From positions 4,588,001 to 4,652,000 of the forward strand of contig NZ_CP077062.1 in NCBI RefSeq assembly GCF_019039255.1: a stretch of 64,000 nucleotides of DNA. The letters run 5' to 3'. The stretch is from Nocardioides panacis. GTDB lineage: Bacteria > Actinomycetota > Actinomycetes > Propionibacteriales > Nocardioidaceae. Shown here in pieces: positions 39,375 to 42,859 of the stretch. Every line of letters starts with the position of its first letter. The first letter of the stretch is position 1. Position numbers and translations under genes: made by a program. The notes under the pieces were generated by a model. That model made no database searches and was not told the DNA's origin. It saw only the letters and a program-made list of their open reading frames with translations.

Positions 39375-39818
39375 ATGAGCCAAGGTGCGTGGGTCCTCGT
39401 CGTCGCGCTGGTCCTGGCCACCGGGTTCGGTCTCTGGCGGGCGGCGCGCGACGGGCGCTTCCGCGGCACCCACCGGCTGCCCGCGGTCCCCGCGGCTGCG
39501 GCCGCGGACGTCGAGCCGGGGGTCCTCGACGGCCTCGGCCACTCGCTGGGGGAGCGGGCCACGCTGCTCCAGTTCTCGTCCGCCTTCTGCGCGCCCTGCC
39601 GCGCGACCCGCCGGATCCTCGGCGAGGTCGCCACCCTGGTGCCCGGCGTCGCGCACGTCGAGATCGACGCGGAGCAGCACCTCGAGCTGGTGCGCCGGCT
39701 GGGCATCGTCCGGACGCCGACCACCCTGGTGCTCGACGCGCAGGGCGTCGAGGTCTCCCGGGCCAGCGGTGCGCCATCCAAGGACGCCGTGCTCGCCACC
39801 CTCGCCGGCGCCGTCTGA
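39375..39818 (+). CDS. thiX: Membrane-anchored thioredoxin-like protein (ThiX type)
   Basis: Protein of 147 residues. An N-terminal hydrophobic helix (WVLVVALVLATGFGLW) anchors a thioredoxin domain with active site FCAPC near residue 75 and the cis-Pro loop RTPTTLVLD. The active site CAPC differs from CGPC of cytosolic thioredoxins. Order thiX, DUF4395, rhodanese, DUF1416 matches the mycobacterial Rv0816c-Rv0814c block. ATG start with GGGAG five bases upstream. Confidence 0.88.
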   Translation: MSQGAWVLVVALVLATGFGLWRAARDGRFRGTHRLPAVPAAAAADVEPGVLDGLGHSLGERATLLQFSSAFCAPCRATRRILGEVATLVPGVAHVEIDAEQHLELVRRLGIVRTPTTLVLDAQGVEVSRASGAPSKDAVLATLAGAV

Positions 39819-39886
39819 GCGTCCACATGGCGGACGGTGTGACCACATCGCGAGACGGCTGTTTCCGGACCGGTCGGCGCTCTGCG

Positions 39887-39892
39887 TACTGT
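39887..39892 (+). promoter_or_regulatory. Leaderless promoter -10 of the cysteine leader peptide
   Basis: TACTGT ends six bases before the ATG at 39899, so transcription should start at that ATG. No ribosome site is present between. A clear -35 is not seen, which is common for such promoters in actinobacteria. Confidence 0.6.
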
Positions 39893-39898
39893 GGCGTC

Positions 39899-39976
39899 AT
39901 GTCCTCGACCATGCTCACCAAGCGCCGCGCAGTGGACCACTGCCGCGTGCGCTCGGCGCTGTGTCGAATGTCCTGA
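39899..39976 (+). CDS. Cysteine-containing leader peptide (attenuator uORF)
   Basis: Short reading frame of 25 residues, MSSTMLTKRRAVDHCRVRSA followed by LCRMS, with two Cys codons (TGC and TGT) near its end. It resembles the actinobacterial 'putative leader peptide' family with an HVDLCR...SAxC pattern that precedes sulfur genes. In mycobacteria, leaderless cysteine-rich uORFs attenuate the downstream cysA2-type operon according to cysteinyl-tRNA supply. It lies 135 bases before the DUF4395-rhodanese operon. An inner ATG at 39911 is a second possible start. Confidence 0.7.
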   Translation: MSSTMLTKRRAVDHCRVRSALCRMS

Positions 39977-39996
39977 CGGACGTCGCCCACCTCTCT

Positions 39997-40024
39997 TTTG
40001 TCGACTGATCTACTCGACTAAGAT
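39997..40024 (+). promoter_or_regulatory. Candidate internal promoter of DUF4395-rhodanese operon
   Basis: TTTGTC at 39997-40002 and TAAGAT at 40019-40024 are 16 bases apart. It lies after the leader peptide, so if used it would bypass attenuation. Direct CGACT repeats lie in the spacer. Confidence 0.4.
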
Positions 40025-40111
40025 TCGAGGTCGTGCCGGTTCTCCCGGCCGCACCGACGTGTCCGTGCCTCTGCCCCGCAGTCCAGGCCGATCCCCTCGC
40101 AGGAGACCCAC

Positions 40112-40591
40112 GTGTCCACCACCACCCGCACCGCCGAGACCTCGGTCGGCACGCGCACCCGGATCGACCCGCGCGGCCCGCGGTTCGCGGCGACGCTGAC
40201 CACGGTGCTCCTCGCCGTCGCGCTGGTGCTCGCCCCGTCGGCCGCCACGATCACGCTGCTCGCCGTCCAGACCGTGGTGTTCGCGATCGGCGCGTTCCTC
40301 GGCATCCAGCACACGCCCTACGCCTGGCTGTTCAAGACGCTCGTGCGTCCCCGCCTCGGCCGACCCGCCGAGCTGGAGGACGCCGCGCCGCCGCGGTTCG
40401 CCCAGGCCGTCGGCCTCGGCTTCGCGGTCGTCGCGCTGGCCGGGTACGTCGCCGGCGTCGACCTGCTCGGCGCGGTGGCGACCGGCTTCGCCCTCGCGGC
40501 GGCCTTCCTCAACGCGGCCTTCGGTTTCTGTCTCGGTTGCGAGGTGTACCTCCTCCTCCAGCGCGCCCGCCCCGCCCGCACGACCCCCTGA
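40112..40591 (+). CDS. DUF4395 membrane protein
   Basis: Protein of 159 residues with two pairs of hydrophobic helices and conserved cysteines in FGFCLGCEVYLLL, the DUF4395 signature. It is regularly found beside rhodanese and thioredoxin genes (Rv0817c in M. tuberculosis), suggesting a membrane role in sulfur relay or thiosulfate handling; function is not proven. GTG start with AGGAG six bases upstream. First gene after the leader peptide. Confidence 0.87.
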   Translation: MSTTTRTAETSVGTRTRIDPRGPRFAATLTTVLLAVALVLAPSAATITLLAVQTVVFAIGAFLGIQHTPYAWLFKTLVRPRLGRPAELEDAAPPRFAQAVGLGFAVVALAGYVAGVDLLGAVATGFALAAAFLNAAFGFCLGCEVYLLLQRARPARTTP

Positions 40592-40648
40592 CCTCACAGC
40601 ACTCATCAAGACAACCGCCCGGACCGACCGGGCAACGAAAGGAACGCC

Positions 40649-41509
40649 ATGAGCCGCGACACCGCACTCGTGAACGCCGACTGGGTCGAGCAGCATCTCG
40701 ACGACCCGAGCATCGTCCTGGTCGAGGTCGACGAGGACACCACGGCCTACGACAAGGGCCACATCCGCAACGCCATCAAGCTCGACTGGACCACGGACCT
40801 CCAGGACCAGGTCCGCCGCGACTTCGTCGACAAGGCGCAGTTCGAGGAGCTCCTGTCGAACAAGGGCGTCGCGAACGACCAGACAGTGGTGCTGTACGGC
40901 GGCAACAACAACTGGTTCGCCGCCTACGCCTACTGGTACTTCAAGCTGTACGGCCACCAGGACGTCAAGCTCCTCGACGGCGGCCGCAAGAAGTGGGAGC
41001 TCGACTCCCGCGAGCTGACCGACGACACCGTCACCCGCGAGAAGACCAGCTACACGGCAGGCGAGCAGGACCTCTCGATCCGCGCGTTCCGCGACGAGAC
41101 CGTCGAGGCCATCGGTGTGAAGAACCTGGTCGACGTACGCAGCCCCGACGAGTACGCCGGCCGGCTGCTCGCCCCGGCCCACCTGCCCCAGGAGCAGGCG
41201 CAGCGCGCCGGCCACGTGCCGACCTCGATCAACGTCCCGTGGAGCAAGAACGCCAACGACGACGGGACCTTCAAGTCCGACGAGGAGCTCACGGCGCTCT
41301 ACGCGGACGCCGGGATCGACGACGGCAAGGACATCATCGCCCTGTGCCGCATCGGCGAGCGCTCGTCGCTGACCTGGTTCGTGCTCAAGGAGCTCCTCGG
41401 GCACGAGAACGTCAAGAACTACGACGGTTCGTGGACCGAGTACGGCTCCCTCGTCGGCGTCCCGATCGCGCTCGGCGACGAGCCGGGCTCCGCCGAGGGT
41501 GGGCGCTGA
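40649..41509 (+). CDS. cysA2: Thiosulfate sulfurtransferase (tandem rhodanese), CysA2/SseA type
   Basis: Protein of 286 residues with two rhodanese domains. The C-terminal active-site loop is LCRIGERSS with the catalytic Cys. It matches the mycobacterial CysA2 thiosulfate:cyanide sulfurtransferase group, thought to take part in sulfur mobilisation. A GAAAGG ribosome site precedes the ATG. Its stop overlaps the DUF1416 start (TGATG). Confidence 0.93.
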   Translation: MSRDTALVNADWVEQHLDDPSIVLVEVDEDTTAYDKGHIRNAIKLDWTTDLQDQVRRDFVDKAQFEELLSNKGVANDQTVVLYGGNNNWFAAYAYWYFKLYGHQDVKLLDGGRKKWELDSRELTDDTVTREKTSYTAGEQDLSIRAFRDETVEAIGVKNLVDVRSPDEYAGRLLAPAHLPQEQAQRAGHVPTSINVPWSKNANDDGTFKSDEELTALYADAGIDDGKDIIALCRIGERSSLTWFVLKELLGHENVKNYDGSWTEYGSLVGVPIALGDEPGSAEGGR

Positions 41510-41805
41510 TGTGCGGCGCGACCACCGGCGGCGTCTCGCTGGACGGCGTCAACGTCGCCAAGGAGTCGGTGATCCAGGGCGTCGTCACGCGTGACGACCA
41601 GCCGGTCGGCAACGCCTACGTGCGGCTGCTCGACAAGACCGGCGAGTTCACCGCCGAGGTGCCGACGTCCGCGACCGGTCACTTCCGGTTCTTCGCCGCT
41701 CCGGGCGAGTGGACGCTGCGCACCCTGGCCCCGAAGGCCGACGTGGTCGACAACAAGGTGGTCGCCCAGCAGGGCGTCGTCGCCGAGGTCGCCGTAGCGA
41801 TCTGA
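41509..41805 (+). CDS. sseC: DUF1416 protein (SseC type)
   Basis: Protein of 98 residues, the partner of the rhodanese in actinobacteria (SseC2, Rv0814c). Begins MCGATTGGVSLDGVN and has a carboxypeptidase-regulatory-like beta fold (VIQGVVTRDDQPVGNAYVRLLD). Its N-terminal Cys2 is conserved in the family; the role is unknown but strictly linked to the sulfurtransferase. Overlaps the upstream gene by one base. Confidence 0.92.
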   Translation: MCGATTGGVSLDGVNVAKESVIQGVVTRDDQPVGNAYVRLLDKTGEFTAEVPTSATGHFRFFAAPGEWTLRTLAPKADVVDNKVVAQQGVVAEVAVAI

Positions 41806-41817
41806 CGCACCCACCGG

Positions 41818-41843
41818 GTGGTCGAGCCTGTCGAGACCGCTCC
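41818..41843. repeat. Interspersed repeat, first copy
   Basis: TGGTCGAGCCTGTCGAGACC with matching flanks recurs at 62298-62323 (25 of 26 bases equal). It lies just after the DUF1416 stop; the other copy also lies between convergent genes. Confidence 0.7.
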
Positions 41844-41852
41844 GGAACCCCA

Positions 41853-41883
41853 GGACCCCCGGGCTGCCACAGCCCGGGGGTCC
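41853..41883. terminator. Bidirectional terminator
   Basis: Perfect 13 bp stem (GGACCCCCGGGCT with AGCCCGGGGGTCC) and loop GCCAC between the convergent DUF1416 and epimerase genes, followed by TTCCGTTCC. Confidence 0.85.
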
Positions 41884-41902
41884 TTCCGTTCCACGGCGAG
41901 GG

Positions 41903-42859
41903 TCAGGCCGCCACCATGCTCTGCCGCCCGACCTCCCACCGGACCTGCCGGGGCAGCCCCTCCTCGATCCTCACGGCGGGCACCCAGCCCAGCATGTCCT
42001 CGGCCAGCCAGCCGGCTCCACCCGTCCGGGCCACGTCGCCGGCAAGGTCGGGCACGTGCGCGACCTTCAGCGGGTGGCCGAGCTCCCGCTCGATGATGGC
42101 GAGCACGGCGTTGATGGTGACGGTCTGGCCACCGGCGACGTTCAGGACCGTGCCCGGCGCGACGCCCCGGGTGCCCGCGGCCACGGTCGCCGCCACCACG
42201 TCCTCCACGAACGTGAAGTCGCGGACCTGGGTCCCGTCGCCGGTCACCGTCAGCTGGCCGCCGGCGAGCCCGGTGCGGATGAACCGCGAGAAGGCCATGT
42301 CCGGACGCTGACGCGGGCCGTAGACGCTGAAGTACCGCAGCGAGACCGTCGGGGTCCCGTAGTTCGCGGCGTACAGGCCGCACAGGTGCTCCGCGGCCAG
42401 CTTGGTCACGCCGTACGGGCTGTACGGCTGCGGCCGGACGCTCTCGTCGCACGGGTAGACGGCCTGGTTGCCGTAGACCGACGAGCTCGACGCGTAGACG
42501 ATCCGGCCGACGGAGGCGTGGCGCGCCGCCTCCAGGAGCGCCTGGGTGGCCGCGACGTTGTGCTCCAGGTAGCGGTGGAAGTCGTGCGCCCACGAGGACG
42601 TGACCCCCGGCTGCCCCGCCAGGTGGTAGACGACGTCGGTGCCGTCGAGCCGCGCCAAGGCCTCGGGCGCCGAGGCGTCCGCCTCCAGGAACTCGAAGTT
42701 GCCGTAGGCCATCGCGGCCGCCAGGTTCGAGCGCTTCTGGGCGACGTCGTAGTAGTCCGTCATCCGGTCGACGCCGAGGACGTCGTGTCCCTGGCGCACC
42801 AGGTGGTCGACGAGGTGGCTGCCGATGAATCCGGCCGCACCCGTCACGAGATACTTCAT
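41903..42859 (-). CDS. NAD-dependent nucleotide-sugar epimerase/dehydratase
   Basis: Extended SDR of 318 residues. The NAD motif is GAAGFIGSHLV, the catalytic triad region is ASSSSVYGNQ and YGVTKLAAEHL (YxxxK), and YFSVYGPRQRPDMAF is the substrate region. It is like GalE or UDP-glucuronate epimerases; the substrate cannot be set from sequence alone. ATG start; GAAGGGG lies about ten bases upstream. It stands apart from the main nucleotide-sugar cluster. The 273 bases to the next gene hold no supported feature. Confidence 0.85.
   Translation of the reverse strand: MKYLVTGAAGFIGSHLVDHLVRQGHDVLGVDRMTDYYDVAQKRSNLAAAMAYGNFEFLEADASAPEALARLDGTDVVYHLAGQPGVTSSWAHDFHRYLEHNVAATQALLEAARHASVGRIVYASSSSVYGNQAVYPCDESVRPQPYSPYGVTKLAAEHLCGLYAANYGTPTVSLRYFSVYGPRQRPDMAFSRFIRTGLAGGQLTVTGDGTQVRDFTFVEDVVAATVAAGTRGVAPGTVLNVAGGQTVTINAVLAIIERELGHPLKVAHVPDLAGDVARTGGAGWLAEDMLGWVPAVRIEEGLPRQVRWEVGRQSMVAA

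Follow-up and report, generated by a model that had tools for sequence, protein, structure and literature searches.

The DUF4395–cysA2–DUF1416 operon of Nocardioides panacis is preceded by a short reading frame that, judged by sequence comparison, is a real conserved coding gene tied to DUF4395 and cysA2. Its best explanation, and in our judgement a probable one, is a cis-acting leaderless cysteine leader, in which ribosome delay at the last UGU codon, near the stop, would report scarcity of Cys-tRNA. The frame (MSSTMLTKRRAVDHCRVRSALCRMS) lies in a 64,000-nucleotide stretch of contig NZ_CP077062.1 (assembly GCF_019039255.1, positions 4,588,001 to 4,652,000), here called the window. The first-pass annotation of this DNA had already taken it for a leaderless, Cys-coding leader of the operon that carries the mycobacterial leader, and spacing, conservation and homology support that reading. 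The annotation was also exact in its coordinates, with a 25-codon frame holding two Cys codons, six bases after a TACTGT box and 135 bases before the operon (Table 1).

Table 1 Features of the leader and its operon, with window positions.
Feature	Position	Strand	Evidence or remark
Thioredoxin-like gene	ends 39818	+	
-10 box TACTGT	39887–39892	+	TANNNT 5–8 bases 5' of the start in 193/198 leaders
Leaderless leader-peptide ORF MSSTMLTKRRAVDHCRVRSALCRMS (ATG 39899, 25 codons, TGA 39974–39976)	39899–39976	+	Library matches, family conservation, pN/pS
Predicted inner RNA hairpin over the AVDHC codons	39929–39944	+	Pairs kept in Nocardioidaceae
First Cys codon, TGC	39941–39943	+	Cys in 194/198 cysA2-linked leaders, TGC in 188/194
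Last (second) Cys codon, TGT, proposed sensing codon	39962–39964	+	TGT in 194/198 cysA2-linked and 42/43 other leaders
Short predicted hairpin AUGUCC-UGAC-GGACGU around the stop codon	39968–39983	+	Fold; weak
Spacer from leader to DUF4395, 135 bases	39977–40111	+	C > G, no intrinsic terminator found
Shine-Dalgarno AGGAG of DUF4395 gene	40101–40105	+	By eye
DUF4395 gene, first of operon (GTG at 40112)	40112–40591	+	PF14340, 1.9e-43
cysA2-type rhodanese (sulfurtransferase)	40649–41509	+	Pfam Rhodanese, 3.8e-35
DUF1416 gene	41509–41805	+	PF07210, 3.3e-39

A strong palindromic hairpin, noticed by eye 3' of the DUF1416 gene (41853–41883), probably marks the end of the operon. An Rfam search gave no match at the leader, and its sole matches were two sub-threshold hits to F6, on both strands, at this palindromic hairpin (41850–41886).

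The leader peptide was found, beyond what chance would give, in 5 of the 7 genomes of the genus and in 278 of the 294 family genomes sampled (own genome included in both). Among the matches listed, at least 26 family genomes, the own included, were identical over all 25 residues. Sixteen family genomes had no leader; 11 of these gave no cysA2 match at E<=1e-40, three had cysA2 near a contig end, and one had only a distant rhodanese (49%). In the single-contig family genome L238, thioredoxin, DUF4395 and cysA2 follow one another but the leader is missing, which is a real loss; because the operon is retained there, the leader is dispensable. A nucleotide-pattern search for cysA2 yielded 587 candidates for related loci; the 80 best, which came from named organisms, were kept, and the closest among them suggest a place in Nocardioidaceae for the window. 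The leader was upstream in all 80 of these best loci, which include Nocardioides, Mumia, Aeromicrobium, Kribbella, Micromonospora, Actinoplanes, Streptomyces, Actinomadura and Nocardia.

For the counts that follow, 223 leaders were collapsed to 211 distinct ones, and 13 without a cysA2 link, all with UGU, were set apart. The remaining 198 comprised a Nocardioidaceae set (94, from loci returned by the family search plus 60 further places among the matches listed), a named set (79), and a phylum set (25) that was found with the Ms5788A model and is thus enriched for Ms5788A-like leaders. Loci L070, L072, L231 and L232 had no leader by the search pattern and were left out, and all counts treat loci that are phylogenetically non-independent. 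DUF4395 or cysA2 lay downstream of 198/198 distinct leaders. In the named set cysA2 was found behind 79/79 leaders but DUF4395 behind only 37/79, and the leader therefore goes with cysA2.

Numbered from the L of LTKRR as 0, residues L0, T1, R3, R4, A5, V6, D7, C9, R10, L15 and C16 were conserved in 183–198 of the 198 leaders. The pN/pS ratio was 0.187 among 63 distinct Nocardioidaceae leader sequences; in the named set it was 0.36 across all 18 codons. Across codons 0–7 the ratio was 0.12–0.13, with 0.13 in the named set. Synonymous change occurred at invariant residues, with five codons used for R3 and GAT for D7 in 48/196. Because the codons drift while the peptide is held, the amino acids themselves appear to be selected, apparently most clearly in the first half of the leader. 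Codon starvation alone would not need the peptide conservation seen here.

The frame begins where a leaderless transcript would begin. The share of leaders with TANNNT 5–8 bases before an in-frame ATG, GTG or TTG (193/198) compares with 2.6% in shuffled upstream DNA, a chance level that is somewhat understated, since each leader was given a single start in the shuffle control and several in the real scan. A Shine-Dalgarno-like motif occurred in 1 of the 197 leaders with TANNNT. The spacing fits that of leaderless genes in Streptomyces lividans, where, by the RNA-seq passages of PMC8079986, the -10 box lies on average 6.3 nt from the transcript start and 93.4% of leaderless genes have TAnnnT. 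The first-pass annotation had further suggested that an internal promoter-like pair at 39997 may bypass the leader. This pair, TTGTCG (39998–40003) and TAAGAT (40019–40024) with a 15-base spacer, was rejected as unsupported: it fell below the level of a consensus promoter scan of 39600–42000, which found nothing, and a pattern search of the spacers of four same-genus relatives found no internal -35/-10 pair.

The two Cys codons of the window leader lie seven codons apart, with no Cys codons side by side near the stop. The annotation had remarked on two separated Cys as unlike the polycysteine versions; this describes the window leader correctly, but it is no oddity, as separated Cys are the usual state. 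No adjacent Cys occurred in 179/198 leaders and a run of three or more in 15/198, and the total was two Cys in 138 leaders and three in 40. By set, two and three Cys were found in 90 and 4 of the 94 Nocardioidaceae leaders and in 37 and 35 of the 79 named ones, three separated Cys being common in Micromonosporaceae-type leaders. Runs of three or more made up 13/25 of the phylum set, which was collected with the Ms5788A model. Ahead of other genes, a single Cys (from VD on) was present in 21/43 leaders. Cys runs also occur in Nocardia-type leaders of the present sample, and passages of PMC1262725 report them for P. acnes and B. longum; on these sources, runs are therefore not only mycobacterial. 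Across the compared leaders, two separated Cys codons do not look like a degenerate version of a polycysteine leader. The constant element among them is the last motif Cys, encoded by UGU and usually 3–4 codons before the stop, together with the conserved peptide.

The TGT share at C16 (194/198 cysA2-linked leaders) stands against a background of 6.5%, while the TGC of the first Cys (188/194) is as background predicts. In Nocardioidaceae, UGU was used at the last Cys in 94/94 leaders versus 11/163 background Cys codons; in Micromonosporaceae-type leaders the figures were 29/29 (0/29) and in Streptomyces-type leaders 15/15 (0/15). Background estimates near leaders were about 5–7% (6.5%; 11/163; 8/175), and a cruder one, from rhodanese ORFs picked by motif with no frame filter, was 34/205. 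The four exceptions at C16 were Nocardia-type CCCLCR/CCCRCR leaders (one from a named Nocardia, L145), with UGC there and TGT at position 14, and none of the 198 cysA2-linked leaders was without a TGT among its motif Cys codons. A separate exception, L281, has UGC at its last Cys and UGU at its first. Two other codons were skewed, with GCA at A5 in 133/190 (background 3.4%) and CGA at R17 in 98/179 (background 3.7%). In general, UGU is read by wobble by tRNA-Cys (anticodon GCA) and hence more slowly than UGC. A literature search, mostly of titles and the starts of abstracts, turned up nothing that we recognised as a UGU rule in actinobacterial leaders.

We propose that transcription starts at the A of the ATG (39899) and that ribosomes translate the leader. 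When charged tRNA-Cys is scarce, a ribosome would be delayed with UGU in its A site, and the LTKRRAVD..R stretch, then about 6–16 residues back, would probably strengthen the delay. The delayed ribosome would break the self-folded leader RNA and the operon would be expressed; with ample cysteine, the ribosome would terminate and expression would fall. A single well-placed slow codon in its nascent-chain context would thus do the job of the mycobacterial polycysteine run. The question of how a two-Cys leader could sense cysteine receives a sharp answer under this proposal, in that a change from UGU to UGC should blunt the response. The output would be either prevention of Rho termination in the C-rich spacer or unmasking of the downstream ribosome-binding site (RBS), as in the M. 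smegmatis model.

The Rho output is possible, at a little under an even chance in our estimate. With ample cysteine the ribosome would leave, Rho would load on the C-rich spacer and stop transcription, and a delayed ribosome would prevent this, a scheme already put forward for mycobacterial cys operons and known from TnaC. Consistent with this, the window spacer has C 0.40 and G 0.25 (39977–40100), and C exceeded G in 80/81 Nocardioidaceae and 93/93 other spacers. The window excess of +0.15 compares with a mean of 0.002 for 17 other upstream regions of this stretch, all of them at 0.1 or below; this control rests on crude gene calls in this one window. No intrinsic terminator was found on the + strand in 39600–42000, hence none between the leader and the first gene, which departs from a classical transcription attenuator. 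Rho was suggested for cys leaders by Seliverstov 2005, who in the relevant passages called the prediction weak (PMC1262725). Since 195/198 leaders have UGU no more than five codons from the stop, a waiting ribosome with UGU in its A site would by our estimate reach only to about the stop codon, leaving the spacer uncovered, which speaks against Rho being held off in this way. The M. smegmatis evidence, too, is said in papers citing Canestrari 2020 to favour translational control.

RBS unmasking, in which the leader RNA would sequester the downstream RBS and a stalled ribosome would free it, is the mechanism that citing papers describe for the mycobacterial homologue; here we consider it conceivable, though somewhat doubtful. 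RBS folding was restricted to the 178/198 leaders with a downstream gene start found within the length limit. In 83 Nocardioidaceae leaders the mean unpaired fraction of the RBS rose from 0.38 in the whole RNA to 0.48 with a ribosome at UGU, by more than 0.1 in 36% of the 83. However, a ribosome at the stop codon gave a near-equal rise (0.47), and shuffled spacers had the same base level (0.39), so there was nothing specific in the change. The corresponding values (whole RNA, ribosome at UGU, ribosome at stop, shuffled spacer) were 0.35, 0.40, 0.39 and 0.35 for 71 named leaders and 0.51, 0.58, 0.54 and 0.39 for the window. The predicted folds thus showed no specific ribosome switch at the downstream RBS.

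On the sensing side, a plain codon-starvation attenuator would have the Cys codons alone matter and the rest of the peptide kept for RNA folding, a reading to which we give distinctly less than an even chance. In Nocardioidaceae, the leader RNA indeed folds better than its synonymous recodings (94 leaders, mean z -1.77). A predicted inner hairpin spanning codons 5–9 is kept, with five pairs holding in 90/90 distinct leaders and a sixth in 75/90. The amino acids by themselves also dictate most of the hairpin's bases. The base left free is at the third position of the Ala5 codon, where all 90 leaders have a purine (A in 79, G in 11), the kind of base that pairing requires; the rare GCA codon, which pairs with the UGC codon in the predicted hairpin, is preferred, in keeping with that pairing. 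Leu at position 8 was CTG in 60/61. Nevertheless, the fold surplus was weaker in the named set (mean z -0.89, 79 leaders) and absent in the phylum set (0.07, 25 leaders), synonymous bases vary at invariant residues, pN/pS is low (about 0.19 in Nocardioidaceae), and the same amino-acid motif recurs before other genes. The stop-codon hairpin was not part of the Nocardioidaceae consensus fold; the Micromonosporaceae consensus fold has one.

The UGU codon itself might be held in part by RNA pairing, as modelled folds suggest. Its third base was paired in 167/194 cysA2-linked folds, and in Nocardioidaceae it pairs with A of a 5' CGAC in 88/90 leaders and with G in 1. Conservation of UGU by one RNA helix was attractive for Nocardioidaceae and Streptomyces-type leaders, but was rejected, as the partner differs in Micromonosporaceae. 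The pairing energy between the 5' end and the UGU region showed only a weak excess over that of synonymous recodings in Nocardioidaceae (mean P 0.12; 24% of 93 leaders at P<0.05), and in the other sets there was hardly any (mean P 0.41 for 79 named leaders and 0.58 for the 25 of the phylum set). Among 42 leaders not linked to cysA2, no common RNA partner or flanking motif for UGU was found, with 30 different 9-mers around the codon; in 25 of these leaders the third base was paired, its partners lying at scattered places to either side. Because the fold surplus is uneven and the pairing partners differ and scatter across leaders, selection on the UGU codon as such is favoured, and we favour RNA pairing as a local addition to it.

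Action of the peptide in trans as a small protein would suit its extreme conservation (100% over 25 residues in the at least 26 genomes noted above) but is very improbable, given that DUF4395 or cysA2 follows every one of the 198 leaders, that the same genomes have weaker copies in front of other genes, and that no Pfam family matches the peptide.

Several known systems resemble the cis-acting cysteine leader that we prefer. The window peptide is homologous to the Ms5788A Cys-rich leader of mycobacterial cysA2 (NF042933; E 3.7e-10, 39.3 bits, below the cut-off of 45), and the two share the position just upstream of cysA2, a putatively leaderless start and the lack of an intrinsic terminator, but the Ms5788A type ends in a Cys run whereas the window leader has two separated Cys. 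Canestrari 2020 reportedly described cysteine-responsive attenuation by leaderless polycysteine ORFs, with translational control in M. smegmatis, according to papers that cite it. A second family, NF042934 (cis_reg_atten, "putative leader peptide"), matched at 24.8 bits (E 1.1e-5, below the cut-off of 27); the window leader shares its R, VD and C-terminal Cys motif ahead of sulfur-related genes, and the model output attaches no mechanism. TnaC-type arrest peptides are likewise short leaders whose nascent chain has conserved residues preceding the stall site, with a possible Rho output; their free-ligand sensing has no evident counterpart in the window leader, and the proposed stall codon here is Cys and not a stop.

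In passages of Seliverstov 2005, the cys operons of mycobacteria and P. acnes are described as preceded by leader ORFs that carry Cys runs. The Cys-run leaders given there, including that of B. longum cbs, likewise have Cys codons near the stop, no terminator and a suggested Rho output, the difference being that the window leader has no run (PMC1262725). Passages on the orthologous M. smegmatis cysA2 leader describe it as ribosome-occupied (PMC4633059). The uORFC-8-2 before cysS of Rhodobacterales, as described in passages of PMC8632094, is also a leader ORF with conserved Cys codons, but differs in its tandem Cys, dominant UGC, intrinsic terminator and phylum. The S. lividans RNA-seq survey lists eight leader peptides and, in the passages covered, calls none cysteine-dependent (PMC8079986). 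With these earlier reports and two matching NCBIfam families, the kind of element is therefore known. The leaders compared here add that Cys are mostly kept apart, that selection appears to act on the amino-acid sequence itself, and that UGU is close to mandatory at one position.

Similar leaders were found ahead of other genes. A class-wide NF042934 search of 148 genomes gave a match at E<=1e-4 in 98, and 79 of the 89 loci were parsed (unparsed: L247, L269, L270, L295, L296, L304 and L321; L274, L278 and L293, also outside the 79, had UGU by a looser pattern). TGT stood nine residues after VD in 78/79, versus 8/175 in the nearby background. After removal of 4 duplicates it was found in 32/32 cysA2-linked and 42/43 other leaders, "other" meaning that tblastn matched neither DUF4395 nor cysA2 of the window within the fetched stretch. 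Genes behind such leaders encode a cysteine synthase (L226), a sodium:dicarboxylate-type symporter (L228), a TauE-type exporter (L073), a molybdopterin oxidoreductase (L071) and a sulfite/nitrite reductase (L003). The own genome has a second leader, MISSATATHLVGRLHVDLGRTRSMICLSWPTA (1257133–1257186, minus strand; loci L003/L334; match E 1.3e-8), before a sulfite/nitrite reductase-like gene, with a single Cys encoded by TGT.

We tentatively suggest an Actinomycetia-wide superfamily with a conserved nascent chain, L[TV].R..VD..R, and one obligatory UGU nine residues after VD, of which polycysteine leaders would be elaborations. In such a two-part device the nascent chain would set the ribosome up and Cys codons would not be counted, and UGU may have been chosen as the more starvation-sensitive codon owing to its wobble decoding by tRNA-Cys. 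Polycysteine leaders would then be one particular form of a broader sulfur control in actinobacteria by one codon plus a conserved nascent peptide, covering cysA2, cysteine synthase, sulfite/nitrite reductase, symporter and other genes.

Several smaller features were also seen among such leaders. Tandem leaders about 240 bases apart occurred at L224/L236 and L227/L237; at least one of them seems to be Shine-Dalgarno-led and not leaderless, and the gene behind them resembles, by its N-terminus, the cysteine synthase confirmed for L226. Leaders of the form LTQRRAVDL.RT.SALCR precede a symporter at L228 (PF00375) and a putative one at L229, L230, L233, L234 and L235, and a GGAAT...GTT arrangement upstream of several of these leaders resembles SigR (thiol stress) promoters. 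The Ser three residues before the UGU Cys was AGC in 37/44 class-wide leaders, compared with an expected 25%.
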